From Acorus gramineus (lineage: Eukaryota > Streptophyta > Magnoliopsida > Acorales > Acoraceae): a stretch of DNA of 64,000 nt. Where the stretch lies: assembly GCA_030737835.1 (NCBI GenBank), contig CM060847.1, positions 21,788,433 through 21,852,432 on the forward strand, read 5' to 3'. Positions 4,711 to 31,539 of this stretch are shown piece by piece (position 1 is the first letter of the stretch; the number at the start of each line of letters is the position of its first letter). A program made the translations under genes and the position numbers. Under the pieces are notes generated by a model. It was given only the letters and a program-made list of their open reading frames with translations. It was not told where the DNA came from and made no database searches.

Positions 4711-7700
4711 TGTCACGCCCCAGGGCGGCCGTCCCCGGGACGCGGCAAGTGTATATATAATATCAGAATCTACACAGGAGGTCAATAATATATCATACGC
4801 AAACAACTAGAATGACACACATGCAACAAAAGGGCTGACATGATATATGCACCAAATGCGGAAGCAAAAGACTGAATCTGTGAATAAACATTCTACAGAC
4901 TCGATACTCAATCATCTGTCCTGTGAGAGCCAATATACACAAATACAACTGAACATATACAAACACGTGCCAAGCACGGAAATCAAATACATACAGTCAA
5001 GAAGGGATGCTGATAACCTCTGGCACTCGCGGAACGTGGCGCTGCTCCGCTACTGAAGGAATCCCTCGGAAAGCTCCAACTGCTGCTCCGGCTCCAGCTC
5101 AGGCTCAGTGACCACTGGGGAAAAACATATGCGAGGGGTGAGCCACACGCTCAGTGAACGGCACAACCCATGCATCACAGACAATATTGACCACAACATA
5201 TTAATCCAACAATTCATCCCGCCCCCAAAGGGCAGGAACAACATAATCAATAATCCATCTTAAACCACTATTTCCATAACCCAGATCATACCCTCACCCT
5301 TACCCCTCAACAGGGGACTCAGGATATTGGGACTTACAATCATCCATAAACAAAACCAGCGGGTCGCTCATCGCCAACCCACTACACCCTCACCTTTCCA
5401 AAGGTGACATAGGATTTTGGGACTGACTAGGCTGTTGGTCACCCTTAGTCCACCGGTAGTCTCTCCTCCACTCCGTAGGCCGCTTGGTCTTCACCCACAA
5501 CTTCGGCTCAGTCCGAAACCAAATCAGGAGGCGCCTACTGATGGGAACCCTCGGAAGGGACGGCCTTTCTAACGCTGGGGCAGTCTCTACCGGATCCAAC
5601 GAAGGGAACAGAACAGCCTATCCATACGCATATGATCCACTCGGATCCGCCGACAACACATCTCTACAACTCAAATGTCATGAACTCTTCAGAGTTCCTC
5701 CAGGGTGCATAACTAAGATGCGGGGAAATGAGTATAATAAAAGCAAGGTTGTAATATCATTGGGGGAAAGAACTCGGGAGGGCGGCGTGAGTTCCCGTTA
5801 TAGGATACCCCGACAACCAAACAAGGAACACGGAGTACCCTAACCCGGGTCTCACCGCTGTCCTCGCAAGGCCCCTCCCCTATAATATTCACTAACATGC
5901 TAATAAACATACCAATCATACAACATTATTTATAATATTATTGGGACTAGAAACCTTGGGAGGGCAGCATGAGGTCCCGATACAGGACATCCCGACAACC
6001 AAACAAGGAACACGGAGTACCCTAACACGGGTCTCAATGTTGACCTCGCAAGGCTCCTCCCTATAATATTATCTAAGGCATGCGATTTAACATACACTAG
6101 CATTTAATTTAATAAATAAACTAGTAGGACGCATGCATAGGCCGAGGTTTCCTAGCATGAAAACAGGGGCATGGTGCATGGCTCTTACACCTATCCTATG
6201 GGTGCAAGTCCCTAACATAAAAGCCTAGGGTAGTATGCATTCTGTATTTAAAATCATGCTCACATGCAATACATATTACTACAGGTTAATATAATCCACG
6301 GTGCCCCAGGAGAGGTCGGTATACGCCCAAATGCGTATGACCCCTCTCTACTGGGTTGGATTGTCCCACTCACCGAAGTTCGGGTCGTTGCGCGACCGTC
6401 CCTCAAGATCTGCAAGACAGGCATTTATACGGTGAGTAAACTACATAAATACTCCAAAATACATTAAAAATACTCTAAAAATACCCAACACTCGGATAAG
6501 CGTACATACGGCCCGTACGCACGCGTATCCGAGTATCCCGACTCACTCCCGAACCCACCGGGCAACCGCACGCACGGCTACCCGCCTCGGGCGCACAGCC
6601 GAGTCCCGGCCCGCGCGCCAAGGCGCACTGCCGAGCCCAGTCCGCACACCCGGACACCACCGGCGCACTGCCGCGCCTGCCCGCGCGCCTCGACGCACCG
6701 CCGCACGCACGCGCACGCTCGCGCGCGCCCGCGCGCACCGCGCGTCCAGCCCAGCGCGCCCCCGCGCGCACTGCGCGCACGCCCCAGCACGCGCGCGCAC
6801 TGGTCCCCAGCACCGCGCCCAGGCGCATGCCCAGGCGCCCTGCCCAGCACCCAGGCACAGTGCCCAGGCGCCCTGCCCGCGCGCACCCGCGCGCACTCCC
6901 GCGCACACCCCCGCTCGCGCCAGCACCCGCGCGACCACTCCGCGCGCACCCGCGCACCCGCGCGCACGCACCCGCGCGCGACTGCGCGCCCGACTGCGCC
7001 CGCCACCCGCGCCCATCGCCCAGCGCCCAGCGCCACCCGTGCGCACGCCCCTGTCAGCTGCTGCGCCTGTGCTGCCTGTGCTGCTGCCTGCTGCCCGGGG
7101 CTGCCAGCCTGCCAGCCCGAGCTCCTCTACCACCCACCTCCGACCACCACCACAGCCTCCGACCGCCTCCCACAGCCCTCCGACGGCCACCCACCGCCGC
7201 TGACCACCACCCAACCTCAAATCCACCCTCCTAGCATACATCTATGCAAGAAAAGAGAGGAAAAGTGGCTTACTGAGGGGAAGAAGGGAAGTCCGGTTGC
7301 TCTCCGCGCACCGAAACCTCTCCCAAAGGGCCTCCAACGCTCGGATCTACTCCCACCTCCGAAATCGGCCAAAACAGAGGAGAAGAGAGGGGGGACGGAG
7401 GGGCAAAACTCACCGGAATCCGGATTTGAAAGCACCGGGGTGTAGATCGGGACCCGATCTACACTTCCTATGCTTTAGGTTTTAAGCTTTGAGGGGTCTA
7501 GGGGGCTCAAAAGTGAGAAAAGGAGAGAGGGGAGAGAGAAAATGAAATTGGTAGGGATGATGAATAGTAATCCGAAAATTAGATCCCACTTATATAGTGT
7601 GCGACTTAAAAACCCAGATACGCTCCGGAACTGTGAAATTTTGGAAACGTTACCGGAATTCGATGAAATTTTCGTGAGAGGCCTAAAATGGCGCCAGGAC

Positions 7701-7858
7701 ACCAAATATACAGTTAGATTTTTAATCGGAGTCCTCTAACTCAGGACGATAGCTAACAGTCCAAAAATTAGCGGTTCCGATCGAAAACCGAAAAAAACAA
7801 AAAACTGTCAGAACGCTCCAACGGTTACCAGTAGGTTAAAAGTGACACATATATAACA
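4711..7858 (-). mobile_element. Solo LTR of a long-LTR retrotransposon, copy 1 (fossil)
   Basis: A 3148-bp unit begins TGTCACGCCCCAGGGCGGCC and ends GTGACACATATATAACA. It is flanked by the perfect 5-bp duplication AAACC (4706-4710 and 7859-7863). No internal coding region or second LTR is present, so it is a solo LTR left by recombination. Read on the minus strand it starts TGTTATATATGTG, has a TATA box at 7589-7597 and a CT-rich leader, and ends GGGGCGTGACA. I therefore assign minus orientation. The middle (about 6490-7230) is extremely GC- and CpG-rich. LTR length and termini suggest a Ty3/gypsy element, possibly Tekay/Del-like; that lineage call is inference. Copies lie at 27183-31056 and 42030-44440. 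Confidence 0.85.
7589..7597 (-). promoter_or_regulatory. TATA box of solo LTR copy 1
   Basis: On the minus strand ACTATATAAGTGGGATC is followed about 30 bases later by ATTACTATTCATCATC and a CT-rich leader. The matching place in the other copies also holds a TATA box: 30611-30617, 44167-44176 and, on the plus strand, 32786-32794. Position conservation supports the orientation of the LTR. Confidence 0.55.
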
Positions 7859-8365
7859 AAACCCATCACATGAAATCCAAAAATTGGGTAAACCAAGATG
7901 TACACAACAACAAAAGAAAACAGAAAAGCCATAAAAAAATGCATGACACAAAACCCATTTGGGTCAAATCGATTTCGCAATGAAAATAAAGAAACCCATT
8001 TCAGAAAACCCAAAATCCGAACAACCCATCATCCAATAAGAGGTAATCAAACCAAAGACCCATAACAAGTCTCCAAAAAAAAACAAAAGCCAAAAAAGGA
8101 GGAGATTTCATGATCTACATACAATCCTAATGAAAGATAAGCCTAAAATCATGATCTAAATACAATCCCAATGTAAGAAATCAGGTTTTGCACTATTCAA
8201 AAGTAAACAATCACCTATTCAGAATCTAATCTACCAACAAAAACACATAACACACATGTCAGCCGACCTTCCAATAGATCCATATCCAAGATACCCTAAA
8301 CAATATAAATAGGTTCAGATCTGAAGAACAAAAGCCACAAAAGGAGGAGATTTCATGGGTTTTAC

Positions 8366-10446: not shown

Positions 10447-13400
10447 ATGGATTCGGGAGGTCGTATTGGCGGACTTGGCTTTGTGGTGCTTTCACAAACC
10501 AACTACAAGAGGTGGAAGTCATGTATGGAGTCCTACCTTCTTGGTGAGGACTTGTGGGAGGTTGCTGGTGGGGGTGAGAAGGAGGCTCCGGAGAATATGC
10601 AGGAGAACGCTAATGCATTGAAGAAGTGGAAGACTTCTAATGCTAAGGTAGAGTTCATATTGAAGAGATCGGTTTCCGACGAGTTGTTCGAGCATATCAT
10701 AGATTGCACATCGGCGTGAAATATATGGGAAACCCTCCATGGGTTGTTCAACAAGAAGAACGTTGCTCGGTTACAATTGTTGGAGAATGAGTTGGCGAAC
10801 TCTTCTCAAGGCGATCTCTCTATCTCTCAATTCTTCTTGAAAATCAAAAATCTTTGTTCGGAGATCTCTACTCTTGACCCGGATGAGCCTATCTCAGAGG
10901 CGCGATTAAAGCGGCACATCGTTCGTGGGCTCAAGAAGGAGAGTACATTCCCTATGTCACATCTATTCAAGGGTGGGCGGTTCAGCCATCCTTGGTGGAG
11001 TTTGAGAACCTTCTTGCTTCACAAGAGTCTCTAGCTCGACAAATGGCGGGGTGTTCTACTTCCGATGGTGACGGGAATGCCTTGTTTTCTTCCAACAAAA
11101 AATCTGGGAAGAAAGGCAAGGAGAAGAAGAAGGACGATGGCGACTCCTCTAGTAAATCAGAGGGGAATTGGAAAGGTGTCAAGTGTTACCATTGTGGTAA
11201 ACTTGGACACATTAAGAAGAATTGCCACATGAAGCTCAAAAAAGATGGTGTCAAAGAAGATTGGGGGAATTGCTTCTCGACGGAGGCAACTTTGGTCGAT
11301 GCCTTGGCCTCCATCAACTTCAAAGAGGATTGGATTATGAACTCCGGTTGTGGCCATCATCTAACCGGCGATGACTCCAAGTTCTCTACTCTCCAAGATC
11401 ATTATGATGGCAATGATCGGATTGTCACGGCAGACAGCACTATACACCCGGTGGAGAAGGTCGGGAGCGTCATCCTTGGCAGCAAAGGAGGTGACGACGC
11501 TATCACACTTAAGAGTGTGTACCATGTTCCGGGTGTGAAGAAGAACCTTCTCTCCGTTTCCAATACGGTGGATGCAGGCCATTATGTCTTGTTCGGGCCA
11601 CAAGACGTGAAGATTCTTTGGAACATTTCCAAGTTGGATGGAGACGTTGTCCACACCGGAAAGAGGGTAAATGATCTTTTTGTGTTATCAGCCTCTTCTT
11701 CGTATGTTGATAAAATGAACACCAATGATAGTGCATCCATATGGCATGCTAGACTAGGGCATCTTAGCATGGATAAGATCAAGGTCATGGTGAAAAAGAA
11801 CCTTGTTGATAAGCTTCCTACCTTGAGCACCTTTGGTGGAGGAGAGGTGTGTGAGGGATGCCAATATGGAAAAGCACATCGTCTTCCATTTGATAGGTCC
11901 CTTACTCGGTGCAAAAATTCTTTGGAGCTCATCCATAGTGACTTGATGGGGCCTTATTCTACACCATCTTATTCGGTCTCTTTATATGCTTTTATTTGTT
12001 GATAACTTTTCACGGTTCACTTGGGTGTATTTTGTGAAAGAAAAATCAGATATTTTCTCAAAGTTCAAGGAGTTCAAAGTGACCGTAGAAGGCATGCTCA
12101 ACAAGAAGATTCGGAGGCTCCGCACGGACAATGGGGGAGAGTTCACTTCGAACGACTTCACCTCATTTTGTCGTGAGCACGGCATTCAGAGGGAGTTTTC
12201 TTGTGCATACACTCCACAACAAAATGGAGTGGCGGAGAGGAAGATTCGTCACTTGGTGGAGACGTGCAAGAGTTGGTTGCATGCGAAGAATTTACTCAAG
12301 GCCTTATGGGCAGAGGGTATGGCATGTGCAACCCATGTGATCAATCGGGTGCCTCTTAGCCCGATTAACATGAAGTCTCCATATGAGCTCTTGTACGGGG
12401 AGAAGCCCAACGTCAAGCATCTCAAGGTGTTCGGATCCATTTGCTATGTTCATGTGCCCGATGCAAGGAGGTCCAAGTTGGATGCCAAGGCCAAGAAGTG
12501 CATCTTCATTGGCTACGATGAACGGAAGAAGGGGTGGAAATCCATGGATCCTGAAACTCACATATTCAAAGTTTCAAGGGATGTTGTATTTGATGAAATC
12601 ACCTCATTTTATGGCCCGGATGTTGCTGGTCCTGAAGGTGTTGGTGCTCTCTCGGACATCAACAACAAGCTAGAGGCCACCATTAGCTTGCCGATCTCTT
12701 CTAGTGCTCCTACTCCATCGGAGGGCTCTTCTTCTTTGTTGATGGGGGGAGCAAAGTGAGAGGGGGAGCCGGATTTCTTCTCTTGATTCGGATGGACAGC
12801 GAGAAGAGAATGTGGTGGAGGCTCCAAGCGAGCCTGCTCTTCGGCGATTGGAGAGGAAAATTGTGAAACCCATGCGGTATCACGATGGAAATTTGGTGAG
12901 CACCATTTCTTGTTTACTTGCCGGTCCTATTGATGAACTTGAACCTTCCTCTTTCAGTGAAGCTAAAGGTGTGAAGGAGTGGGAGGACGCCGTGGATGAG
13001 GAGATGCGTGCGCTCATCAAGAATGAGACTTCGGTCCTTATTCCAAAACCCAATGATGTGAAGTGTTGAGCGTTTCAAAGCTCGACTTGTGGCTAGGGGT
13101 TTCTCTCAAAATATGGAGAGGACTATGAGGAAACCTTTAGTTCGGTGGCCAAGATGACTTCCGTTCGGGTGGTGATTTCCTTGGCGGCTTCGCTTGGGTG
13201 GAGACTATGGCAACTCAACGTCAAGAATGCCTTCTTATATGGAGAAATTGACAAGGAGATTTATATGGACCAGCCCCCGGGATATGTCTCTAGCACTCAT
13301 CCGGAGTTTGTTTGCAAACTCAAGAAGGCTCTTTATGGGCTTAAGCAAGCACCAAAGGTGGTATGGTAAAATTGCGGAGTATTTACAATTTTGTGGATAT

Positions 13401-14423
13401 TGTGCTTCTAATTCCGATTCTAGTCTATTTGTGAAGAAGCAAGGGTGTCTCCACATGATTGTTCTCTTATATGTGGATGACATGATCGTCACGGGCAATG
13501 ATGAAGGGGAGGTTGCTAAGCTTCGGTCCGAGCATTCCATTCGATTCGAGATGAAGGATCTTGGTGAGCTAAGTCATTTTCTTGGCTTGGAGGTGGAGAA
13601 GGTGGACCTTGGGCTCTTCCTTTCTCAAAAGGGCTATGCGAAGAAGATTGTTGAGAGGTTTGGGTTGAACCAAAGGAAACGGTGTTCCACTCCTCTTGAT
13701 TCAAGCATGAAGATTGCTCGTGATGTTGGAAAGCTTCTTCTGGACCCTCGCCCATATCGTGCTCTTGTGGGTAGTCTCATCTATTTGACTATCACAAGAC
13801 CTGAAATTGCATTCTCTGTTGGACTCGTGAGCCGCTACATGCATGAACCGCGGACACCACATTTGGAGGCGACAAAACGTATTTTGAAGTATGTGAATTC
13901 CACACTTGACTTTGGTTTTCTTTGCAAGAAGAAAGTGGAGTTTTCTTTATGTGGATTCACGGATGCCGACTTGGGTGGTGATTCGGATGATTGGAGGTCT
14001 ACATCCGGTTATGTTTTTCTATGCGGATCAGCCGGGGTTTCTTGGTGTAGTAAGAAACAAGATTCTGTGTCTATTTCTACTATGGAGGTGGAATATAAAG
14101 CTGCTACTCTTGCTTGTTAAGAGTGTGTGTGGCTTCGGCGGCTCATCGAGGATGTCCATTATAACATTCACAAGCCAACCACTATTCTTGGAGACAACCA
14201 AAGTGCTATCAAGCTTGCTATCAATCCGGTTTGTCACGCAAGAACCAAGCATATTGAGATCGAGCATCATTTCATTCGTGAGAAGGTGCTTGATAGAACG
14301 CTAAACGTAGAGGATGTGCGAAGCAAAGATAATCTTGAGGATATCTTCACCAAATCTCTCTCCAAAGGGCCGTTCGAGTTTTTACGAGTCAAACTTGGGC
14401 TTGTACCCAAAAGTTCACTTTAA
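10447..14423 (+). pseudogene. gag-pol remains of copia element 1
   Basis: Fossil coding region. The gag part (about 10447-11170) starts MDSGGRIGG and is followed by a CCHC zinc knuckle, CYHCGKLGHIKKNC, near 11186-11227. Protease lies near 11330-11500, the integrase N-terminal zinc region and core near 11730-12600 (FVDNFSRFTWVYFVKEKS; FSCAYTPQQNGVAERKI), reverse transcriptase near 13050-13800 (LNVKNAFLYGEIDKEIYM; LLYVDDMIV), and RNase H near 13930-14420 (GDNQSAIKLA; IEIEHHFIREKV). The usual single long copia frame is broken in several places (about seven). It cannot encode a working polyprotein as it stands. Confidence 0.92.
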
Positions 14424-14430
14424 GGGGGAG

Positions 14431-15121
14431 TGTGAAATTTTAAAGTGAACTTTGTTGTCTATTTATCTATCTTAGCCTTTTATATTGAGGGATGTAGTGA
14501 GGCAACTTTGTATTTTGTGTGGGGCACTATTGACTTACTTGCACAAGTGTTCATCTCCTACACTCCCCACTACCAACCACCTCATTCATTTCACCACTTT
14601 CCCATAGCTTGACTTCCTATGTCACCCACCATATTTTTCATGACTTGGAAAACCAAATTGACCATCACTTTTCCAAGAACCCCATTTACCTATACATGGA
14701 CCATCAGTTCCTATAAGTCTTATATTTACCTATGCATTGGTAAATCACATTGACCACCTTTTTCCAATATCTACACTTTTAGCCATGCATTGGTACACCA
14801 CACAAGTTATTATGGACACCAACTTCCCCAACCTATTCCCCATACCAACCTTGCCTATAAAAAGAGACCCTCTCCACCATTTCCACCAACTCAACTCAAT
14901 CTAACTCACTCCACAAAAATCCCAACACCACCTAAAACATACACTTGTGCAAGCTTGTCTCTAGTAGCCCAATTTTGAATGTAAGCTTGTCTCTTGTAGT
15001 GAAATATAGTTGTCAATAATCCCTCATCTTGGAGTTGTTCATTCTTCTTCTACTCTCAGTTGTGAGTCTTGGGCTAGTGTGACTTTGATTGCACTATTCA
15101 AGAGCCTCGTGTTTCTCCACA
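14431..15121 (+). repeat. 3' LTR of copia element 1
   Basis: It starts after the purine run TAAGGGGGAG and ends TTTCTCCACA, followed by the target duplication ATACA. Confidence 0.92.
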
Positions 15122-15126
15122 ATACA

Positions 15127-17557
15127 CACTCCATTCTCTAAAAAGAAAAATAACCCATCCAACACACCAACAATAGCTTGACCATGAAAATCAATCAAAA
15201 CAGAGAAAAAAATTCCAACCTAAAGCAGTGACATTACTTATGCCTGGTCTCCTTCCTTAGCCACTCTTTATTTCCTATTATCCCCACCTACTTCTACCTC
15301 TTGTCTCCTAATGTCTCTCAATTTCAGCTCTTTTGTATCTTTCCTTTATGAATATGAAAGAACTACCTTTGCTGTAAAAAGAAATAAAATCAATGGAAAA
15401 GCACCACAAAAGTGGCCAACATTTAGACAACAAAAATAATGCACCAGTAGCATTATATGAATGTATTCCTATTGTCAAAAGAAGATTTTTCAATAACTAA
15501 TGAAAAGATTTTTCAAATAACGTGCTTATAACACCCATTATCATTATATATATATATAAAACCTTTCAAAGAAAAGAAAAGAAAAACCTTCAATCAAATT
15601 CATTCTCTACTTTCTTGACGAAAAAAAGGGTCGAGAGAATTATAAAACATTTTTGGGAAACAGTTTTTATTTTATTTGTTTTTTTTTTAATTTTCCGTCT
15701 CCACTGCCGTCATTTTGTTGGTTTAGTCAACGTTAAAATAATGTTAAATATAATGTGAATCTCTAAAAACAGGTGGCACATTGCGGACATAGGAGTAGCA
15801 GTGCTCCTATTCAGACGTAGGAGAAGCAGATTTTTGTCCCAGAGAGCCAATAAATGCACTCACACAACATACATATACCAAAATTACTCAAAATGATGTC
15901 ACATCTATCATATTAATATATATTCTCATACACAAACAATTTGATTAAGATTATAGTTGTCCTTTAAACTTATCTGCATTTTACCCGAAGTTAAAAAAAA
16001 TTTATTTTAACATTTTCTAATTAATTAAATAATAAAAAAAAAATCAAACAAAAAATTATTTATTTTGCATGAATATCTATCTATTCTGTTACGTTATAGC
16101 TATTGGAACAAATAAATCTATAGCAACAAATCTGATTCGTAGCTGGCTCACGTGTATAATGGTATTGGCGTGTATAATGGTATCGGTATTATTATTATTA
16201 TAAATATTATTTTTGGTCTTTTGGGGTATAATGGACTGGTCCGGACTCCCAACATTTTCCATGGAAAAATTCTCATATGGTGGTGATATCTCAGTCTTTT
16301 CTTTCTTTGTTTCTCATTTATTTATATTTTTTATAAATAAGTTCATCCAATTTAGAGTTATATAGAATGAATTTTTTTAACTTATAAAAAATATGATAAA
16401 TCATTCAAACTGAAATCCGTAAGTAGAAAAATTGTTTGACGAATTAAAAAGTTAGAAGAACTTACTTTACAAGACATTGTCATATCTACATATAACACGT
16501 CCTCTAATGCAATATGTCAAATCTCTAATGGATATATATATTATATTATGCAGTTGTATACTCTAGTAAGAAAGACGTAATAATGTATGCATCAATCCTT
16601 TAGAATATGTTTTTTCTTTTTTTTTTCTTTTTTTTTTTTGTTAAAGCATGTATTTTAATTCATTCAAATATGCATATCAGTAATATAACCTTACGTGAAA
16701 ATAGGTATTTTTATTAGATAAGTACATATTAGTTTAAATAAAATTCCGAACCTGTTTGATCTACAAATGTGTCCGCATGACTAAGTTTAACATTTTTGTA
16801 CTATATGTGTATGGTCACATCAAGCATCTCAATGAAGAACGTCTCTTATTATGTTGACCTAATTAACAAGAGATGGAAAAAGTGTGGTTCATGATGTTGC
16901 CACACATTGTATTTATTAACAAATTGTATAATTGGAAGATGGGATTAGATTGACTGTCTTAATTTAACTTGCATGACATTTCTATTTTCTAATCTCCTCA
17001 AAATAAAAATAAAAAAAACTAATCTCGTCCTTTAAGAAATAATTAGAACAACATTCATGAGCATATATATATACTATTTAAACCTTTTCAAACTTCATTT
17101 TTTTTTTTTTTATCATGAAAAGCTAAATGTGGTTTTGATCCCAATTTCGTGATTCGATCTGCATTTCAGAAATTTTAAGATTTATTAAAGCAGAATTCGC
17201 CTAAACGGGATCTAAATGGCTCCAAATTCCTTTTCCCTTCATAAATATATATCAAGAGTGTCATCCACTAGCATATATGAACATGAGGTTTCAAACATAT
17301 AATCACTTCATAATCAAACTATTAATTGCAATACAAGAAGACACAGCTTGGATGCGCCATTTATTCTTACAATATCACCCTTTATTTTTATAATAATCTC
17401 ATGCCAGTATACCTTGCATGTCTTCGGTTCAAAATTGATAAGTGACACCTCACAGGTCTAGTACATGAGGTTAATTTATAGTATTTCTAATCATGTTTTA
17501 GTTCTTCATATAAAGGATCTGATGAGATCTGACTAGATTCCATCTATACGAGTTGCG
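15127..17557. other. AT-rich intergenic stretch
   Basis: No gene is recognised. Small structures seen: a short perfect hairpin, ATAGGAG/CTCCTAT, at about 15790-15812; a tandem GTGTATAATGGTAT pair near 16150-16180; and long T and A runs. The part nearest 17557 is probably the 3' flank of the peptide gene. Confidence 0.4.
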
Positions 17558-19004
17558 TCAACCATGGCCTGGTGGTTTCTCATAACGAGGAGCCTTTGAA
17601 TAGGAAGTGCCACCAAGGTTGTAGTCATCACCATGGATTCCCTCAATAGTATATTTCTTTTCTGCATTTAAAAAAAAAAGAAAACATGTACAATTTGTGT
17701 GTCAATTAAGATTTATTTCACTTATAATAATCTTAACAAATCCATAATTATCATATATGCATGCATGTATAGCTTATCATCAAACACATAAAACGTGTAT
17801 GTATTTGAAAATGAAAAATGATATCTAATCCCGTTTACAGCCTCGCCTTTTGTCTTCAACAATTTTGATTTTTTAAAGTACATGTACATTCTCGCCTAAT
17901 GTGGTACATAATATTATGAAAAGTGAAATATAAACCTAGATAAACTAATACATAAAAAAAAGAAAAAAAAAGAGCATACTCTGCATGCACTAGTGAAATA
18001 TATATAGCACCAAGATAGTATAAACTACCATCGGAGTTTATAGTCGATTGGGGATCATCTCCAAAAGCTGCAAGCGAGAGACTACGTGTAGTAACCCTCG
18101 ATTGGACACACGCACACACACACACACAATATAGGGCATTTTTCACTTTTAACCCCCCAAAAATTTTAATTTAAAGTTTGACTCCATGTCAGTTTTAATT
18201 GTAAAACAGGACTTGGGGTCACTTTGACCAGGTCAATGCTATCACCTCAGCGTTGAGTTGAATTTTTTTTCTTTTTTACATATAAAAGGCAATCACAAGT
18301 TTCTTTTGAATACATTTTTTTTAAATGTTTTTCAACTTCAATTTCTAAATTTATGGATAACTTTGATGGATTCACCATGGATTTTTTCTGTTTCTATAAA
18401 ATCTTTATCAAATCTATTAATCAAATATATCAATAAGAAAATTTAAAATTTTAATATTCAAGATTCAAATTTTAAATTTAGATAACATAAAAAGTTAAAA
18501 TTACGATAAGATTATCTAAATTCACATCAAATTTAAATTAAATATTATTAAACAACATTTTAAATTTAAATTTTTTTAAAAATATGAAAAGAGATTTGTA
18601 TATGAAATGTTATCACAAATCACATTCTAAGGAGATGTGATCCATAAATAAAGGAAAAAAAAATTCCACGTCAGCGCTAAGATGACAGTGTTGACCTGGT
18701 CAAAACTAATCAAGTGTCAGTTTTATAATAAAAAATTAGATCATAGAAATTAAAATATAAAATAGGGTTAAAAATAAAAATTGCCCTACTATATATATTC
18801 CAACAACATGATTGATGAATACGAGCCTACATATGAGACTGTAAATAGAACTTTATGTAACAACACAAAAAAAGAAAAAAGAAAAAAAAACTCACTGGCA
18901 TGGTCCGGCACCGAAGTCTCTGTAAGCTCACGCGCGGCCGATTTTGAAGAGAAGAGAGATGATGAAAGAAGGACTAACAAAATAAGGAAGGCCTTTGTAG
19001 GCAT
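17558..19004 (-). CDS. Small secreted peptide precursor, three exons (host gene)
   Basis: On the minus strand, exon 1 (19004-18896) starts MPTKAFLILLVLLSSSLFSS, a clear signal peptide, then KSAARELTETSVPDHA. The donor is CCA/GTGAGT. Exon 2 (18067-18029; acceptor CTCGCTTGCAG, donor GATG/GTAGTT) gives TFGDDPQSTINSD. Exon 3 (17661-17558; acceptor TTAAATGCAG) gives EKKYTIEGIHGDDYNLGG followed by TSYSKAPRYEKPPGHG and a stop. All junctions keep frame (both introns phase 1), for about 83 residues with no cysteine. A TATA box lies about 73 bp upstream of the ATG. Intron 1 (827 bp) contains a MULE-like MITE and a CA repeat. The product should enter the secretory pathway. I do not recognise the family; the DDY motif and PP-G-H end resemble plant signalling-peptide precursors only in style. 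Confidence 0.62.
18107..18128. repeat. CA microsatellite
   Basis: An almost pure CA run in intron 1 of the peptide gene, just beside the end of the inserted MITE. Confidence 0.8.
18134..18786. mobile_element. Mutator-like MITE in intron 1 of the peptide gene
   Basis: The ends are inverted repeats: GGGCATTTTTCACTTTTAAC on the left matches GGGCAATTTTTATTTTTAAC on the right (reverse complement). Matching inner arms include TTTGACCAGGTCAA on the left and TTGACCTGGTCAAA on the right. Flanks CACAATATA and TACTATATA agree at 7 of 9 positions, suggesting a decayed 9-bp duplication. No coding capacity. Confidence 0.6.
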
Positions 19005-19076
19005 TCTTTTTTTTCACTCAAAGAAGATGTGAAGTGTGAGATGTAGCCTATAATAATGTCTGTCAACTTGAGCCCT

Positions 19077-19084
19077 ATTTATAG
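19077..19084 (-). promoter_or_regulatory. TATA box of the secreted peptide gene
   Basis: The minus strand reads CCTATAAATAGGGCTC. A start site about 30 bases downstream (near 19045-19052) would give a leader of about 45 bases before the ATG at 19004. Confidence 0.6.
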
Positions 19085-19509
19085 GCAAATTTTTTAGTCA
19101 TGCAAACTATATACTATGTTGTTTAGGACTATATATGAAAATTTAGTTGGATAGGTGATGTTTTGAACGTATTATGCTGTGAGTCAAGATGGGGAGGAAG
19201 ACTCACGACACTCACCAACCACAACAAAAAAAAAAAAAAATGGAAAACTCACAGAAGTCAAGTTGAGGTGAATAACTTATTGTTTCTCTTCAAAATCCAT
19301 TTATGATAGCTGTATGACGAGATACATATGCTTTTAGCCTTCCATTTGGGTATCCATATAAGTTATTCTGGAATAGATAACTATTCTAATATAATTAAAT
19401 AATAAATCAATTATTGTTTGGTTGTGTTTATAGTTATTCTCGTTGAGAAATATGGTAATTAATAAAAATTTTGTTGAGGGTTGATAATGAATAAATTGTG
19501 GATAAAAAG

Positions 19510-20587
19510 CAGTGGTAGACCCTGGATTTATAACAAGGGGGGGTGGGGACTAAAAATTATACTTGAAAAAAAATTATAACAAAATATATGAAGATGATAA
19601 TTTAAGACAAAAATATCAAATTCAAGTCATTCAATAATAAATCAATGCACCGATGAAGATTTCATAGATATTTTTTTATAATAGTCACAAAAATAAAGAC
19701 AATTTTTCACCGCATAAAATTCATCTACAATCATGTCATTGTCAAACTTTTCAGCTATTTACCTTTCAATATATATAATTAAACAATTTGCAAGAAATTC
19801 ATCCTCTATTTTATCACTATTGCCATTTGCTCCCCTTTTGATTCATCTTTAGATTCATCAACTATAATGCTATACTTCGCATCACCAATTTCTTTACGAA
19901 TTGCATTTTGCACCATACTTGAAAAAATAGACAATAGCTCTTTTTGAATTTTAGGGGATATATATATTAGCATTTCCTGGAGCATTTTCAAAAACAACTT
20001 CATCCACTTCTTTGTTATATTGTGCAAGAAGTTTTATAAATCTCAACACAAACATTTTATCAAAGCATATACATCGTTAATGTGAGTATATGCTCCAGTG
20101 ATTTTCTACTGATACATATATATAGTACTAAAATTGGGGCTGAAAAAAAATAAACAAATAGTTCTCATACAAAAATTTGAAGAATTGAAGATGAACTTAA
20201 TATTTTCAAATCTCACAATCCAATCAACAAAAATAAATAAAATCCACCAACAGAAAATGAACACATATCAAACACAAAGAATAAAAAATCAAAATCAAGT
20301 ATTCAAAATATGTTTCATTAAAAACAAATATTAAACATACAACAAGAAGTACTTAGAACGGGGTTGAAGATTCTTTCGATAGGGTCGGAGATGTCATGAG
20401 AGACCATGCCTGGCGCACAATTTTTTTCGATTTTTGGCTCTGTTGTGTTGGGGATTAATTTTTTTTGAAATGATGGGTTGGAAATTAATTGATTTACAAT
20501 TACAGACATGAATGCATGGGCCACTATTAAGTATTTTCTAAATCTTTGGGGTCTGGGCCCTAGCTTGTCACCCTAGGTCCTCCCCTG
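19510..20587 (-). mobile_element. hAT-type DNA transposon relic inside MITE copy A
   Basis: A 1078-bp insertion has a perfect 8-bp duplication ATAAAAAG (19502-19509 and 20588-20595), as expected of hAT. The left end CAGTGGTAGACCCTGG and right end (reverse complement) CAGGGGAGGACCTAGG match the CAGGGGCGGACCCAGG end of a second copy at 46260. A transposase fragment lies on the minus strand. The element is far shorter than an autonomous hAT. Confidence 0.82.
19806..20027 (-). pseudogene. hAT transposase fragment (DUF4371 / zinc finger MYM-type 1-like)
   Basis: The minus-strand frame reads ISPKIQKELLSIFSSMVQNA, then IRKEIGDAKYSIIVDESKD and KGEQMAIVIK. This is the characteristic start of the catalytic region of plant hAT-related proteins annotated as zinc finger MYM-type 1-like, with the Asp of VDES. 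Only about 70 residues remain of a protein that is normally 600-800 residues. Confidence 0.7.
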
Positions 20588-20762
20588 ATAAAAAGTGAAT
20601 AAGATGTGAATAAGGATTTATAAAATATTAAAAAATTGATTTGATATGTGAGTCTCCTAATTTAATAGAGGTTATAACCGATGATTGGACATGTAAACCT
20701 CTTTTATACCGGTGACTTGGAATACCAATATCAGTTTATTCTCATATATTTTAGCATAACTA

Positions 20763-21160
20763 TGTTGAAAATTTCTTTAAGGTGGGTCTACATATATCAC
20801 ATTATTAGGCATTGTTGACTGTCAAATAAAGAATGAGTGGTGTTGATTATACCTATTCAGTTGTGATTTAATTTTTTATAAGGTTAAATACACATCTCTT
20901 ATGCACGTTCAATTACACGTGTATTAAATGAGTACAGATTCAATTTTTATGTGTAGAGACCTATTAAGGACCCATTTGTAATTTCAGTTAATATGATGGG
21001 CAAATACGGAATTTGGGTTATCTATATAAATGGTTGAGGTGGAGGTGAAAAACCTACCATCAGATCTCCAAAGCAATGGCGACAGATACGCATATTATTG
21101 ATTTTTCTTTATTGATCTGCATGAGATCTAGGGTTCAAGGGTTTTATTGAAATCCCAACA
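20763..21160 (+). repeat. 5' LTR of copia element 2
   Basis: It begins TGTTGAAAATTTC and ends AAATCCCAACA. A TATA box TCTATATAAATGG lies near 21021-21033. Confidence 0.88.
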
Positions 21161-22411
21161 AGTGTTATCAAAGCCTCTTACAGGATCATTGAAGAAAATA
21201 AATAAAGCTTTATCTACCTTCATGAAATAAGCAATATTAAATTAGGATTGTGTATCGGTATGAAGTTTATTCCTGTTCGATCAAGAACTCATAAGGATAC
21301 CGAATACAATGATGTTTGCAATTATTTTTTCATATATGAAATCGAATAAAGAGGGCAGCGGGCTTGAAAAATATGATCCATCCATATTCGTAACATTCCG
21401 GATCACATGTAAATTTCATATTTATGCTTAATATAATTATATTCCGGATCACATGCTTTGTATTTGATTTCTGTCAATGTGTGTATACAATCTGATCCCA
21501 ACGATTTTTTATTTTTTAATAATTGGATATAGATGCTTAATGTGATTCGTGTATATGTAGAGGATGTGATCTCATTTAAGCTTTATTTTTTTATTATTGT
21601 TATCATTGACTACGGATAAATCAAGCCTTGCCCGAATCAAAAGGAATTTGCCGAAACTATAAAGTTTTTTTTTTTTTCATTTACAGTTTAATTGTTATGC
21701 TTCATTAATATATGCTCAATTAATATTTATATTGGGTTTATAATTAATTGATTTGAAGCATATATTCAGATCTGTAATTTGAAACAAATTTCCGCGTTTA
21801 TGTTCGGCAACAAATATATTGCTTATTTTAACAAAAAATGTATAATAGAGATTTTTGGAACACAAATCTTTCGCAATCAGAATCTTAAAATTAAAAAAAA
21901 ATTGACATGAAACGTCACCAAAGTGGCCTCTATCATGAAGATTTTCTTAATTTAAAGATAAAAGTTTATGGTTGCATAAAGTTGCGTCTATACCCATGCG
22001 AATAACAATCAGCCCAAAGGAAGGTTGTTATTTTGGCCGGATCATAGACGGTGTAAGATAGTTGATATGAGTGATGTATTTCTGGGGTCAACCCATGCAT
22101 TCAATAGCTGGCTCAAAGGAAGACTATTATTTTGCCGGGCCTAGTTTTATGTTGTTCCTATTAACTAATCTTATGTTGGAGAGAACCACTTACATGTTAT
22201 AATACTTTCCCAAAGGATTGATTGCAATGATGTGTTAGGTTTCTTAACAGAGCAAATTATTAAAAGAATATAAATAATTTTACTCTGAGGTCTAATTGCC
22301 CTATAAAGTAGACCACAAAATTAAAGAAAATGCATGATGATATTTATATTTTATATGTTTATTCATTATTGCTATAGTAGATGGGATAATTGTTAATTGT
22401 GAGCATTTCTT
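21161..22411 (+). other. Long untranslated leader of copia element 2
   Basis: No reading frame of note. It contains the primer-site variant at its start and two similar stretches around GGAAGGTTGTTATTTTGGCC (near 22020) and GGAAGACTATTATTTTGCCG (near 22118). Confidence 0.5.
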
Positions 22412-22614
22412 AGGGTGCGTTTGGTTGCGCGATTGCGCTGCGATTGCGATTGCAGAAAGCTGCGTTTACAATCGTGCAACCAAATAGTTTTACTGTAGCA
22501 GCTTCCTGCACACAAATTTTAGACAAATAGTGCCCAAAAGCTGCGATTTCAAAAAACTGAGAAAGTGAGCTTCCTGTAGATTCAGTTTTACAATCGCACA
22601 ACCAAACGCACCCT
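22412..22614. mobile_element. hAT-like MITE just upstream of the gag start of copia element 2
   Basis: A 203-bp unit has inverted ends AGGGTGCGTTTGGTTGCGCG and, at the other end, AGGGTGCGTTTGGTTGTGCG. Flanks CATTTCTT and AATCTCTT agree at 6 of 8 positions, suggesting a decayed 8-bp duplication. A decayed relative lies at 55966-56171. Confidence 0.72.
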
Positions 22615-22629
22615 AATCTCTTTTGTGTA

Positions 22630-25600
22630 GTGAATGCATCTTCTATATCTGCCAACCTGAATAACATCCCAATGCTTAATGGATCTAATTTTGCAAAATG
22701 GAAAGAGCATGTTAAAATTGTTCTTGGGTGTATGGATTTGGATTATGCGCTTCGGGTTGATGAACCTGCTAAACTCACTGAAGAAAGCACGCCTGATGAA
22801 ATAGCTTTATATGAGAAGTGGGAGCGCTCTAATCGGATTAGTCTTATGATAATGAAATACTCTATTTCTGACACTATTCGAGGTGCAATGCTGAGGAAGA
22901 AAATGCCAAGAATTTCCTTGCTGAAATTGCAAAACGATTCATTGGATCGGAAAAGGTTGAGACTTGTACGCTTCTTAGCAAACTTGTCTCTATGCGGTAT
23001 GACGGTAAAGGAAATATAAGGGAGTACATAATGGAGATGTCTAATCTTGTTACTAGATTGAGGGCATTAAAGTTAGAATTTTTCGATGAGATTCTTGTGT
23101 ACTTCATTTTGATATCTCTTCCTGCACAATTCGGTCCATTTAAAATAAATTATAATACTCAAAGGAAAAAGTGGACCGTTAACGAGCTTATTGCTCAATG
23201 TGTGCAAGAAGAGGAAAGGATAAAACAAGAGAAGACAGAAAGTGCTCATCTGACAATTTTTCCTCGTGGCAATCCAGGCACTAAGAAAAGAAAAAGAAAT
23301 AATAAGGGAAATGAAACTGCAAATGTTGGAACTTCACAAGCAAAAGGGCAATGGAATCAGGATAAAATTATCAAATTTTTCTTTTGCAAGAAAGTTGGCC
23401 ATGTGAAGAAGGATTGTTCCAAATATCAAAAGTGGCTCGCAAAGAAAGGTAAAAATTTTAGTTTTGTTTGTTCTGAATTTAATCTAGTTGAAGTGCCACC
23501 CCATTCTTGGTGGATAGATACAGGAGCTACTATTCACATAAGTGTTTCCATGCAGGGCTTTCTAAGGAGCCAGACACCCAGTGATGCCGAAAGGTTTATT
23601 TACATGGGAGATGGTAATAAAGCTTGTGTGGAAGCAATTGGAGTTTTTAGATTGAAATTAGGGTCAGGTTTTTATTTGGATTTGGATGAAACTATTTATG
23701 TACCGTCTTTTAGACGGAATTTGATTTCTGTTTCATGTTTAGACAAATGTGGTTACAATTTTTCATTTGGAAATGGAAAATTTTGTCTATTTCAAAATTC
23801 AAATATTATTGGTACTGGCTCTTTAATTGACAATCTATATAGATTGGACTTAGATTCCAACTATTTAAGGTCAAATGAAATTTTGAATGTGAATGGTGGT
23901 GGTATAAAGCGAAGATTAATAAATGAGAGCTCCTCTACGTTATGGCAAAAGCGTCTAGGACATATCTCAAAAGAGAGAATCTAAAGGCTTGTGTCAAATG
24001 GAGTTCTTGGTCCTCTTGATTTTTCTGATTTTAAGATGTGCATTGATTGCATCAAGGGAAAACAAACAAACATAAGGAAGTATGGTGCATCAAGGAGTCT
24101 AGATGTCTTAGAAGTAATACATACAGATATTTGTGGTCCATTCCCTACGGCTGCTTGGAATGGTCAAAGGTACTTTATTACTTTTACAGACGACTTTTCT
24201 CGTTATGGGTACCTATACTTAATTCATGAAAAATCACAGTCCTTGGACGTTTTTAAGGCCTATAAAGCTGAAGTTGAAAATCAACACAATAAGAAAATTA
24301 AAGCCGTTAGATATGACCGTGGTGGTGAATACTATGGTAGATATGATGGATCAGGCCAATGTCTAGGACCATTTGTGAGATACTTAGAAGAATGTGGCAT
24401 TGTTCCTCAGTACACCATGCCAGGGACACCACGTCAAAATGGTGTATCTGAGAGACGAAATCGAACCCTAAAAGATATGGTTAGGAGTATGATATGTCAT
24501 TCTTCACTACCAGAGTCATTGTGGGGAGAAGCCTTAAAGACTGCAGTTTACATTCTTAATAGAGTACCCAGTAAATCGGTAGCTAAAACCCCATATGAGT
24601 TATGGACTGAAAAATTACCTAGTATTAGGCATCTTCATGTCTAGGGTTGTCCTGTTGAAGCTAGGCCTTATAGGCCTAATGAAAGAAAATTAGATTCAAG
24701 GACAATTAGTTGCTATTTTGTCAGATACTCTGAAAAGTCAAGAGGTTTCAAGTTTTATTGCCCTTCTACAAATAGTTTGATTGAGACGGATAATGCCAAA
24801 TTTATTGAGGATGTTGAAAGTAGTGGGAGTTTACAACCTAGGAATATCATCTTTGAAGAAGAACAAGTTGTCATTCCCATGACAATTGTTGAAAGTGATG
24901 CGGTGATCACACATGTCATTGTGCAGGATGCGGATAAAGATCACCAAAATATTCCTGACTTACCTCCTACAAATATGGGAGAACCCGAACAACCTCAATT
25001 GGAGGTGCCATTAAGGAGATCGCATAGGGAGAGGAGACCAGCAATTCCAGATGATTATATTGTTTATCTCCAAGAGCATGAGTTTGATATAGGAATGGAA
25101 GATGATCCTCAATCTTTCATTCAAGCCAAACAAAGCTCTCATTCCCTAGAATGGACCAATGCCATGTTAGATGAGATGAAGTCCATGAGTGACAATGATG
25201 TTTGGGATCTTGTCGAACTGCCTAAGGATATAAAGACAATTGGTTGTAAATGGGTATTTAAAACCAAACGAGATTCTAATGGCAGTATCGAAAGATATAA
25301 GGCACGACTTGTCGCTAAGGGCTTTACTCAAAAGGAAGGCATTGATTATAAAGAGACTTTCTCTCCGGTATCAACAAAAGACTCATTCAGGATCATTATG
25401 GCACTTGTAGCTCATTATGACTTAGAGCTACATCAGATGGATGTCAAGACTGCGTTTCTTAATGGTGATGTTCAAGAAACGATATATATGGTGCAACCAG
25501 AAGGTTTTCAGGCTAAAGGATTAAAACATCTGGTATGCAAATTAAAGAAATCCATCTATGGCTTAAAGCAGGCATCCCGTCAATGGTACCTAAAGTTTGA

Positions 25601-26684
25601 TCAAGTGATTTCTTCTTTCGGGTTTAAAGAAAACATTGTAGATCAATGCATTTATCATAAGACTAGTGGGAGTAAATTTATTTTTCTGGTGCTATACGTT
25701 GATGATATTTTACTAGCAAGCAGTGACATAGGTTTATTGCATGAGACTAAGAGATTTCTTTCAAAGAAATTTGAAATGAAAGATCTTGGTGAGGCATCTT
25801 TTGTGATAGGCATACAGATCCAACGCGATATGTCACGTGGTATTATTGGTTTGTCACAAAAGCCTATGTCAATAAGGTGCTTAGTAGATTTGGTATGCAA
25901 AATTGTGCACCAGGTGATGCACCCATTTCGAAGGGTGATAAATTAAGTTTACTCAATTGCCCAAAGAATGATTTAGAAAAAAAAAATGGAGAATATCTCT
26001 TATGCATCAGCGGTAGGGAGTCTCATGTATGCTCAAGTTTGTACGCGTCCAGATATTGCGTATGTTGTTGGGATGCTTGGCAGTTATTTAAGCAATCCAG
26101 GCATGGATCACTAGAAAGCAGTTAAAAGAGTTATGCGGTACTTGCAAAGAACAAAGGATTTCATGCTCATATTCAAGCGTTCCGATCAATTGGAATTGAT
26201 TGGATATTCAGATTCAGACTTTGCTGGCTGCCTTGATAGTAGGAGGTCCACTTCATGTTACATCTTCATGTTAGCTGGAGGAGCTGTGTCATGGAAAAGT
26301 GTTAAACAAACACTTATAGCTTCATCCACTATGGAAGCCGAATTTATTGCTTGTTATGAGGCATCTAATCAAGCAATATGGCTGTAAAATTTTATCTCAG
26401 GGCTACATGTTGTGACTTGCATTGAGAAACCATTAAAGCTTTATTGTGATAACAAGGCAGTAGAACTATTTTCCAAGAATAACAAGAGTTTGGCAAAATC
26501 AAAGCATATTGATTTAAAGTTTCTTGTTGTGAAGGAAAGGGTTCAGAATCATCATATGTCAATCGAATACATTAATACAAAACTCATGATTGCTGATCCG
26601 CTCACTAAGGGCCTACCACCTAAAGTTTTCAAGGAGCATGTTGCTCGTATGGGTGTGGTTTGTCCTCGTGATGTACTTTATTAG
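22630..26684 (+). pseudogene. gag-pol remains of copia element 2
   Basis: Fossil coding region. The gag part begins near 22630 with NIPMLNGSNFAKWKEHVKIV, continues to about 23400 and ends in a zinc-knuckle-like CKKVGHVKKDC. Protease lies near 23500-23760 (WWIDTGATIHIS), integrase near 23930-24640 ([32 protein letters not shown]), reverse transcriptase near 25140-25900 (HQMDVKTAFLNGDVQETIYM; LYVDDILLAS), and RNase H near 26130-26680 (YSDSDFAGCLDSRRSTS; LYCDNKAVELFSKN). Domain order is that of Ty1/copia. Several breaks (about six) interrupt it. The lineage differs from that of element 1 judging from gag and LTR sequence. Confidence 0.92.
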
Positions 26685-27125
26685 TGAGAGTTTGTATTGT
26701 TGAATTATTTGTTTTATTTTAGATTGACATTTGGGATATCCACTTTAGTTTATTGGTGATTCTGAAAATTTATCTACTTATTCAATTATGGTTGCGCATA
26801 TATGGTTTGATTAAGTAGAATACAGATACTCATTTTGAGTCATTAAAGTGGACCAGTTGGAAATAGGCATAAAAATCACACTTGTATGTAATTTCCATGC
26901 TATACATTCTGTACTTGATCTATGTCGTTAAGGTCATTAGTATTTGTGACCATGGATGAGTCCTACCATGATAAATGTGGTAAAGGCTGTCATGATCCTA
27001 TATTGGTGGTTTCAATGGACCAGATTGTTTAAGAGATGTCACTCATAAATCTTGACAGTAAAGGTTGAGCTCATAAAGTTACAATACCTAATTTCAGGGT
27101 GACCTATGTGGCCCAAGTGGGAGAT
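26685..27125 (+). other. 3' untranslated part of copia element 2
   Basis: Non-coding stretch between the RNase H remains and the 3' LTR, ending in the purine tract AAGTGGGAGAT. Confidence 0.7.
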
Positions 27126-27717
27126 TGTTAGAAATTTCTTTAAGGTGGGCCTACATAGATCACATTATTAGGCATTGTTGACTGTCACGCCCCAGGGCGG
27201 CCGTCCCCAGGACGCGGCAAGTGTATATATCATATCAGTCTAAACAGGAGTTCAATAACATACTCACACAACAGCTAAAATGACATCACAGACAAAAGCA
27301 GGGCTGACATGATATATACACAAATAGCGGAAGCTAAAAGACTGAATCTGTAATCCAAAAACATATTACAGATTCGATACATAATCAACTGTCCTGTGAG
27401 AGCCAATATATACAAAGACATCCACATAATACACAAACGCGTGCCCAAGCACGGAATATAACACATACAATCAAAAGGGATGCTGATAGCCTCTGAAACT
27501 CGCGGGACGTGGCGCTACTCCGCTACTGGTGCAGTCCCTCGGGGAGCTCCTCCTCCAGATCCGACTCAGATGACACTGGAGAAAAAATATTATGCGAGGG
27601 GTGAGCCACACGCTCAGTGAACAGCACAACCCATGCATCACAATATATATTAACCACCAGATTTATTAACCACCATCACATTATTAAAAGCCACAAAATG
27701 GCAACAACTAAACAATC

Positions 27718-27970
27718 CAGTGGGTCGCTACCGCCAACCCACTACACCCTCACCCTCACCCCTCAATAGGTGACAAAGGATATTGGGACTGACTACACAA
27801 ATCCAGTGGGTCGCTATCGCCAACCCACTACACCCTCACCCTCACCCCTCAATAGGTGACATAGGATATTGGGACTTACAAACCAGTGGGTCGCCACATC
27901 GCCGACCCACCACACCCTCACCCTCACCCCTCAATATGGTGACATAGGATATTGGGACTGACTAGGCTGA
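27718..27970. repeat. Minisatellite of about 80-86 bp inside solo LTR copy 2
   Basis: Three units start CCAGTGGGTCGC at about 27717, 27803 and 27883, each holding CACCCTCACCCTCACCCCTC and GATATTGGGACT. The other LTR copies carry about two related units (near 5290-5430 and 42540-42740), so the number varies between insertions. Confidence 0.75.
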
Positions 27971-29215
27971 TGGTCACCCTTGGTCCACCGATAGTCTCTC
28001 CCCACTCCGTAGGCCGTTTGGCCACCCCCACATTCAGCACAGTCCGTCCCAAATCAGGAGGTGCCTACTGATGGGAGCCCCTACACGGGACAGCCTTTCC
28101 AACGCCGGGGTAGTCTCTACACGGATCCAACGAAAGGAACAGAACAGCCTATCCATCGCATATGATCCACTCGGATCCGCAGACAACACATCTCAACAAC
28201 TCTAATGTCATGAATTCTTCCGAATTCCTCCAGGGCGCATAACCAAGATGCGGGGAACATATATATAATAATTATTAACAAGAGGTATAATATTGATTAT
28301 TAACAAGAGTTATAATATTATTGGGACTAGAAACCTTGGGAGGGCAGCATGAGGTCCTGATACAGGACATCCCGACAACCAAACAAGGAACACGGAGTAC
28401 CCTAGCCCGGGTTTCAATGTTGACCTCGCAAGGCCCCTCCCTATAATATTATCTAAGACATGCTAGCAATCAATTATATAAATTAAACTAGTAGGATGCA
28501 TGCATAGGCCGAGGCTTCCTAGCATGAGAACAGGGTGACAGGATGCATGGCTCTTACACATATCCTAAGGGTGCAAGTCCTTAACATACAAGTCTAGGGT
28601 AGCATGCATACTACGTTTTTATCATGCTTGCATGGATTTCACATTACAACAAGTTAATATAAATCCATAGTGCCCCAGGGGAGGACGGTACACGCCCAAG
28701 TGCGTATAGCGCCTCCCTAGTGGGTTGGATTGTCCCACTCACAGATAGTCGGGTCGTCGAGCGACCATCCGTCAAGATCTGTAAAATAGGGTAATCAATT
28801 CGGTGAGTAAAATACCCAAATAAATTCAAAAATACATTAAAATACACAATACTCGGACAAGCGTATATACGGCCTGTACGCACGCGAGCCCGAGCACTCC
28901 GACTCACTCCCGAACACCCCGGGCAGCCGCACGCACGACCACCCGACCCAGGCACACAGCCGCGCCCCAGCCCGCGCGCCCAGTCGCACGGCCGAGCCCA
29001 GCCCGCACGCCCGGACACCCTGCCGAGCCCCCCGGGTGCACCGCGCGCCCACTGCGCCCCAGCGCAACAACCCGCGCGCACACCCGCACGCCCAGCGCCC
29101 CATCGCAGCATCCCGCGTGCACCCCGCGCGCACCACCCGCTCGCATCACCCGCTCGTCCAGCCCCGGGTGCACCCGTGCGCACTGCGCCCCAGCGCAGCG
29201 CCCCGCACGCGCACC

Positions 29216-30170
29216 CGCCCGCACTGCGCCCCAGCGCAGCGCCTGCACACCTGCCCGCTCACACTCCCCCGCTTGCACCGACTGCACGCCCTGCGCGCAC
29301 TACTCCCCCTGCGCAGCACCCTTACACCACCCGCTCGTCCACGCGCCCCTGCGCAGCGCTCCGCGCGCACGCCGCGCACTGCGCCCAGCGCGCCCGACCG
29401 CACTCGCCCAGCGAGCCCGTCAGCACGCGCCCAGCGCGCCTGCCCGCAGCTCGCCCGCCTGCGCCTGCCTGCCTGCTCGCGCAGCTGCCCGCATGCGCCC
29501 GAACAGAGCTCCACCCACGCGCACGCCCTCGCGCATGCCCTCGCGCACGCCTGCGCGCACGCCCACGCTGCCCGAGCACTGCCTGCCTGCGCGCTGCCTG
29601 CCTGCCAGAGCACTGCCTGCCTGCGCACACAGCCTACCCGAGACAGCCCTTCCACCACCCCGACGGCCACCAACGGCCTCCAACCGCCTCCCACTGCCAC
29701 CAACGCACCCGCCCGCACTGCGCCCCAGCGCAGCGCCTGCACACCTGCCCGCTCACACTCCCCCGCTCGCACCGACTGCACGCCCTGCGCACACTACGCC
29801 CCCTGCGCATCACCCACACACCACCCGCTCGTCCACGCGCCCCTGCGCAGCGCTCCGCGCGCACGCCGCGCACTGCGCCCAGCGCGCCCGACCGCACGCG
29901 CCCAGCGAGCCCGTCAGCACGCGCCCAGCGCGCCTGCCCGTAGCTCGTCTGCCTGCGCCTGCCTGCCTGCGCCTGCCTGCCTGCGCGCGCTGCTGCCCGC
30001 ATGCGCCCGAACCGAGCTCCACTCGCGCGCACGCCCGCGCGCATGCCCACGCTGCCCGAGCACTGCCTGCCTGCGCGCTGCCTGCCTGCCCGAGCACTGC
30101 CTGCCTGCGCGCACAGCCTACCCGAGATAGCCCTACCACCACTCCGATGGCCACCAACGGCCTACAACCG
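29216..30170. repeat. Tandem duplication of about 494 bp in the GC-rich leader of solo LTR copy 2
   Basis: The string GTCCACGCGCCCCTGCGCAG occurs at 29338 and again at 29831. Flanking text on both sides also repeats, including CGCAGCGCCTGCACACCTGC and ACAGCCTACCCGAGA. The block is rich in CpG and in CCTGCCTGC repeats. Confidence 0.75.
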
Positions 30171-31539
30171 CCTCCGACCGCCACCAACGGCCACCCTCCG
30201 CCACCCACAGCCACCCTAACTCAAAAACACCCTCCTAAAAGGCATCTAAGGAAGAAAAGGAAGGAAAGAAGGCTTACCCAAGGAAGGAAGGGAAGGAAGG
30301 GAAGTTCGGTTGCTCTCCGCGCACCGAAACACCTCCTCCAAGGCCACCACTACCGAGCTCTTCCTCAGCCCTCGAAATGGCTGAAAACAGAGGATAAAGG
30401 AGGGCGTGAGAAGGGGCTAAACACACCGGAACTCGAATCCGAGACCACCGGTGGATAGATCGGGATGAGATCTAACCTTTCTCTTCTTTGAGTTTTAGGT
30501 TTTGACCCCTTGAACTAGGTCAAATGGTGGTTTTAAAGAGAGGGAGAGAGAGAGAGAGAAATTTGGAGACGACGATGAATAGGGGGGGTTTTGTCTTGGT
30601 CATGGGATTTCTTTATACTCACACCCACACCTCACACACTCACACCCCCTAATTAGATTAGCCCTAATTAGGTTTAGGCTAGGTTTAGGTGATCTAAGTA
30701 CACTTTGACCCTAGTCAACCCAACCAAACTAAATTCCAAAACCTTTCGACCAAGTCAAAGATCAACCTTGACCAAGTCAAGTCTCCCAATGACTTTCGCT
30801 CGGTCAAAACCCGGATACGTTTCGGAACTGCGAAATTCTGAGACGTTACCGAAATTCGATGAAATTTACGCGAGTGGCTTGGAATGTCACCAGGACACAT
30901 AATATGTAGTTAGATTTTCAATCGGAGCCCTCAATCTCAAGGCGATAGCTAAAAGCCCGAAATTTTAGCTGTTCCGATCGAAAAACGAAAAAAATCGAAA
31001 AACTACCAGAATGTCCCAACGGTAACCAGAAGGTTAAAAGTGACACATATATAACAGTTGACTATCAAATAAAGAATGAGTGGTGTTGATTATACCTATT
31101 CAGTTGTGATTTAATTTTTTAGAAGGTTAAATACACATCTCTTATGCATGTTCAATTACACGTGTATTAAATGAGTACAGATTCAGTTTTTATGTGTAGA
31201 GATCTATTAAGAACTCATTCGTAATTCCAGTCCTTATGATGGGTAAAGACGGAATTTGGATTGTCTATATAAATGGTTGAGGTTCCCACTCCAAACCATA
31301 ATTTCTCTTTCTCATACCATCCCATCATTGTGTGAGAGAAAGCAAAAAAGAGAGGGACTTGGAGGTAGAAGACCTACCATTAGATCCTCAAAGCAATGGC
31401 GACAGGTACACATATTATTGACTTTTCTTCATCGATCTGCATGAGATCTAGGGTTTAGAGGTTTTATTAAAATCCCAACAAACTATACCCCATATTCCTT
31501 TCAAACAAGGGATTAGGGATTTAAAGAGTGTGTGGGTGT

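Follow-up and report, generated by a model that had tools for sequence, protein, structure and literature searches.

A candidate two-exon gene for a short secreted peptide related to glycine-rich proteins in Acorus gramineus

Secreted glycine-rich proteins (GRPs) are sorted into classes by a signal peptide and their glycine repeats, (GGX)n or mixed GGX/GXGX, in the classification given in PMC5852109, where class II members carry a cysteine-rich C-terminus. Two examples of small secreted class II GRPs are CrGRP of dodder, which is located in the cell wall (PMC8096328), and AtGRP3, which interacts with the kinase AtWAK1 (PMC4777284). The nodule-specific GRPs of IRLC legumes are described as short secreted proteins with 20-30% glycine and no recognisable motif (PMC6056668). 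We analysed a window of 64,000 bases (C1:21788433-21852432), together with searches of the same genome that covered 398.6 Mb. The features of the locus are as follows, in window positions.

19076..19083, minus strand: TATA box TATAAATA, about 75 bases upstream of the ATG
19004, minus strand: start codon ATG, read directly
18896..19004, minus strand: exon 1, 109 nt, with the start codon and a signal-peptide-like segment
17662..18895, minus strand: single intron of the preferred model, 1234 bases, or 577 without the inserted element
18132..18788, no strand assigned: MITE-like element in the intron, 657 bases, with inverted-repeat ends
18029..18067, minus strand: middle exon of the sequence-only reading, 39 bases, probably not an exon
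17558..17661, minus strand: last exon, 104 nt, equivalent to exon 2 of the family, ending PPGHG-stop
17300..17557, minus strand: 3' flank, presumed 3' UTR of presumed extent
17386-17381 and 17365-17360, minus strand: AATAAA words in the 3' flank, read directly

Joining of the 109, 39 and 104 nt on the minus strand gives 252 nt, encoding 83 residues and a stop with both junctions in frame, which confirmed the exon borders, frames and cysteine-free product claimed by the sequence-only reading. The absence of cysteine in this translation sets the product apart from the class II proteins CrGRP and AtGRP3. Exon 1 ends in phase 1 (36 codons plus one base), and skipping of the middle exon keeps the frame and yields a product of 70 residues. 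The hydrophobic N-terminal segment of exon 1 and its match to the family make it signal-peptide-like. The TATA box, also claimed earlier, was located at 19083-19076 and is common to all six aligned genes (the C1 pair and four C6 paralogs), across which the promoter and 5' region could be aligned.

The protein search of the genome (E up to 10) revealed at least 25 matches. They split into at least 22 to exon 1 (two on C1, five on C6, ten on C4 and five on C92, the locus itself included), at least two to the last exon, both in the C1 copies, and one further match that is the middle exon itself. Among the matches listed, the exon-1 E-value was 1.2e-13 for the window itself, 8.4e-6 to 0.0075 for C6 and 0.019-0.37 for C4 and C92. 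All 18 exon-1 loci that were read, of the at least 22, begin with an ATG and have their phase-1 GT at an equivalent position; many of those on C4 and C92 are near-duplicates and thus not independent. Several of the C92 matches (C92:16059-80182) equal those of C4 (11.00-11.51 Mb) letter for letter in protein, so that C92 may represent the C4 cluster a second time, either as an allele or as unplaced sequence.

An intron was modelled in silico in seven relatives: four C6 paralogs, C4 11001553, L028 on C4 and L034 on C92. Each model starts with a signal-peptide exon, which a single phase-1 intron, identically placed, separates from a second exon. The introns span 688-699 bases in the four C6 paralogs and 126-312 in the three C4 and C92 genes. 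Glycine repeats abound in the second exon of the C4 and C92 genes and are less abundant in that of the C6 genes, and the modelled products have 130 (C4 11001553), 149 (L028) and 149 residues (L034), all three being glycine-repeat proteins, and 80, 80 and 77 residues for three of the four C6 genes. Similar to the locus, the C4 and C92 GRPs, which we take to be class I-like (our own label, after a review table), combine a signal-peptide exon of the form MxxKAFLxLxLL...ARELxE and a phase-1 intron at the same place with a second exon starting with a lysine/acidic stretch. The locus differs from them in having no glycine repeats, in its glycine content (13% against 40% in one C4 gene) and in a family score below the cut-off.

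The C6 paralogs (4890550, 4913781, 4919172 and 4928774) are closer to the locus, with the promoter, exon 1, the intron phase and the PGHG tail in common, whereas their second exons exceed that of the locus by about 6-19 residues and still contain YGGY units and proline-rich stretches. Behind a phase-1 acceptor, the four C6 second exons end in YPGHG-stop (three) or NPPGHG-stop (one). The alignment score of the last exon against these four exons was reached in 1, 8, 3 and 3 of 2000 residue-order shuffles, and that against a C4 second exon in 454 of 2000, i.e. no alignment beyond chance. In addition, about 90 bases near the 3' end of the intron align with the C6 intron ends, scoring 48, 50 and 58 against shuffle maxima of 34, 39 and 41 and thus above all 60 shuffles in each of the three genes tested. 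Exon 1 and the position of the phase-1 intron are common to the GRP-like lineage of this genome, and the promoter is common to the C6 branch. Three further places on C6 (about 4876.8-4877.7k, 4878.1-4879.4k and 4907.9-4909.3k) match the last-exon region or the 3' flank, and the third matches a portion of exon 1 and the promoter as well. At 4878k the last-exon frame is broken, and the coding part is less conserved than its own flanks. From their sequences, these three copies appear visibly decayed or incomplete.

Eight sequences were scanned against Pfam, in which the GRP family PF07172 has a curated cut-off of 30 bits. The C4 genes scored 59.6 (L028) and 48.8 bits (C4 11001553), three of the four C6 genes 36.8, 29.8 and 23.4, and the locus 15.8 (70 residues) and 16.8 (83 residues), with 16.2 for the other C1 copy; across the seven full products scanned, the score drops stepwise from C4 through C6 to C1. 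Against Pfam the product gave this sub-threshold GRP match only, without a match to any peptide-hormone family; scanned by itself, the mature part of this copy in the window matched no Pfam family. A six-frame PF07172 search of the genome also returned nothing; this is uninformative, since none of 14 control genomes gave a match either. A signal peptide forms part of the GRP model, which is reported in PMC2912341 to have given a false hit. For this reason, the case for family membership rests on layout, promoter and tail and not on the score. Glycine makes up 13.0% of the mature part here, 12.7, 12.7, 21.2 and 20.0% in the C6 genes and 40% in the single C4 gene for which it was determined. Since two C6 genes have 12.7% each, the locus is not alone in its loss of glycine, which part of C6 shares. 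No (GGX)n or mixed GGX/GXGX repeats were found in the product. The nodule-specific GRPs, compared by description only, offer a precedent for glycine loss, with the differences that their signal peptide is distinctive and their glycine content 20-30% (PMC6056668). The present gene is not known to have any connection with nodules.

The sequence-only reading had called the peptide undescribed-looking, and this is half right. Five letter strings of the family signal peptide had no match in the literature library searched, and among the papers listed there on PF07172, GRP/nodulin, AtGRP3/WAK1, nodule GRPs or unannotated secreted peptides none was seen to name the present gene; the locus is nevertheless a diverged relative of the secreted glycine-rich proteins (PF07172), at about 16 bits. 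The predicted gene is not an orphan; it derives from secreted glycine-rich cell-wall proteins and is poor in glycine. Its peptide looks like an orphan because it falls under the PF07172 cut-off. One genome spans glycine-repeat wall proteins (C4 and C92), lower-scoring C6 proteins and the short glycine-poor C1 peptide, in what is otherwise ordinary divergence within a fast-changing gene family.

Based on these comparisons, we propose with a probability of about 0.62 that the locus is a two-exon host gene (19004-18896 and 17661-17558, minus strand) for a 70-residue product, descended from the secreted glycine-rich protein family. The gene would have retained the signal-peptide exon and phase-1 intron of the family, together with the PGHG tail and TATA promoter that it has in common with the C6 branch, and its second exon is devoid of glycine repeats. 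Upon transcription and splicing of the two exons, the signal peptide would direct the mature peptide, about 46 residues long if the cut is assumed before RELTE, to the cell wall. This predicted peptide would have no cysteine, would contain Tyr, Pro and Gly with a charge of about neutral, and, like its relatives, might have a minor role in association with the wall or in binding the matrix. The earlier claim of a host gene with a signal peptide accordingly stands as that of a candidate, whose paralogs have the same start, promoter, intron phase and tail. Points against the proposal include the sub-cut-off PF07172 score, the unmatched mature part, the false hit reported for the GRP model, the weak E-values of exon 1 against C4 and C92, the C4 second exon at chance level, a glycine content no lower than in two C6 genes, the poorly conserved coding part at C6 4878k, and the coding differences between the C1 copies and borderline dN/dS of exon 1 given below.

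A near-copy of the gene, about 97% identical, lies 574 kb away at C1:22379569-22381011, as part of a segment of about 5 kb that is present twice (window 14871-19870 and C1:22376891-22381877; 97.3% identical). Comparison of the two copies bears on the foremost alternative, a decaying or silent family copy that is no longer under selection and perhaps unexpressed, and whose frame would have stayed open owing to the recent date of the C1 duplication; we regard this as unlikely, though it deserves real weight. The copies show eight coding differences in seven codons, three of them in the middle exon (5/213 without it). All eight are nonsynonymous and therefore no constraint is seen between the copies, as a silent copy would have it; however, the lack of synonymous changes has a P of about 0.09 under neutrality and decides nothing. 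The exons differ at 8/252 positions (3.2%) against 70/4959 (1.4%) in the 5-kb segment and are thus no slower. All exons together are faster than the segment rate (P 0.029), and exon 1 and the last exon alone are not (P 0.19). The three visibly decayed or incomplete C6 copies and the 657-base element within the intron also speak for this alternative. Against it, neither copy has a frameshift or stop, and the start, the GT/AG borders and the TATA box are kept in both. Exon 1 of the C1 copies compared with seven C6, C4 and C92 relatives gave dN/dS values of 0.33-0.60, with 0.36-0.60 for the window copy, the excess of dS being borderline (Fisher P 0.098, 0.058 and 0.016 in the three pairs tested). 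Past constraint on exon 1 is weakly indicated by these sequences, with no sign of it after the C1 duplication. Downstream of the stop, 0/257 aligned bases differ between the copies, and the 3' flank also aligns with the three decayed or incomplete C6 copies; the identity of the flank is not special, because the low divergence reaches to about window 15600.

The sequence-only reading had proposed three exons, of which the first and last stand, while the middle one has no counterpart in the modelled one-intron relatives. A three-exon gene for 83 residues, with the 39-base exon newly gained in this lineage, is improbable in our view, even though its AG/GT borders and frame are present in both C1 copies. 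The intron holds 43 open in-frame AG..GT mini-exons against a Markov mean of 19, and on simple splice scores three of the 43, the middle exon included, are at least as good, the other two sharing an acceptor. An equally good mini-exon occurs in three of the four C6 introns and in none of the three C4 and C92 introns. As only 13% of Markov-shuffled introns contain a mini-exon as good, the middle exon has splice signals that should not be dismissed, and this speaks in its favour. However, it was absent from the relatives examined, all seven in-silico models having one intron, and with its flanks it did not stand out against the C6 introns, its scores being reached by 10, 76 and 15 of 200 shuffles. 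None of the listed matches at the three further C6 places covers it. Between the C1 copies, 3/39 of its bases differ against 26/1184 in the two introns, faster than the rate of the 5-kb segment (P 0.019). A C6 stretch near 4878.5k resembles TINSDEKKYTIEGIHGD, which runs across the second junction of the three-exon model, in a weak match (E 0.025); we rejected it as support for the middle exon, since the C6 letters form one continuous exon-like frame and therefore favour the last exon instead. Because the middle exon has no counterpart, can be skipped in frame and is highly diverged between the copies, the two-exon gene with its 70-residue product is probably the better model on this sequence evidence.

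That all eight coding changes alter the protein while the PGHG tail is kept could also point to neofunctionalisation, with positive selection acting on a secreted signalling peptide, but the counts are too small against neutrality and no peptide-hormone family in Pfam is matched, making this highly improbable, and we hold it just as hard to believe that the C1 copies became a lineage-specific secreted signal or defence peptide by glycine loss under positive selection. Capture of the gene by a transposon is thought unlikely, because the copies sit in the duplicated 5-kb segment and the element is found inside the intron.

The MITE-like element has terminal inverted repeats of about 133 bases that are 71% alike, with GGGCA...TGCCC near its ends, and a DNA search found many diverged copies genome-wide. 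Another intron stretch (17810-17954) matches places on C5, C9 and C6 at 74-81% and is possibly a small repeat. Beyond the gene, window 19871-31518 is absent at the corresponding point of the other C1 copy, which holds about 6.2 kb near 14871 where the window has none. Related GC-rich repeats, with up to 64% GC in 2-kb windows, lie at window 4710-7862, 27182-31057 and 42030-44440, and their longest frame had no Pfam match. TGTCACGCCCC is the start of the repeat at 42030 and also of the insertion carried by the other C1 copy; this insertion ends in ATAACA, and start and end resemble LTR ends. Remnants of Copia-type retrotransposons, in several frames, lie at window 10887-14120 and 22561-25946 and match Pol_BBD, gag_pre-integrs, Retrotran_gag_2 and RVT_2.
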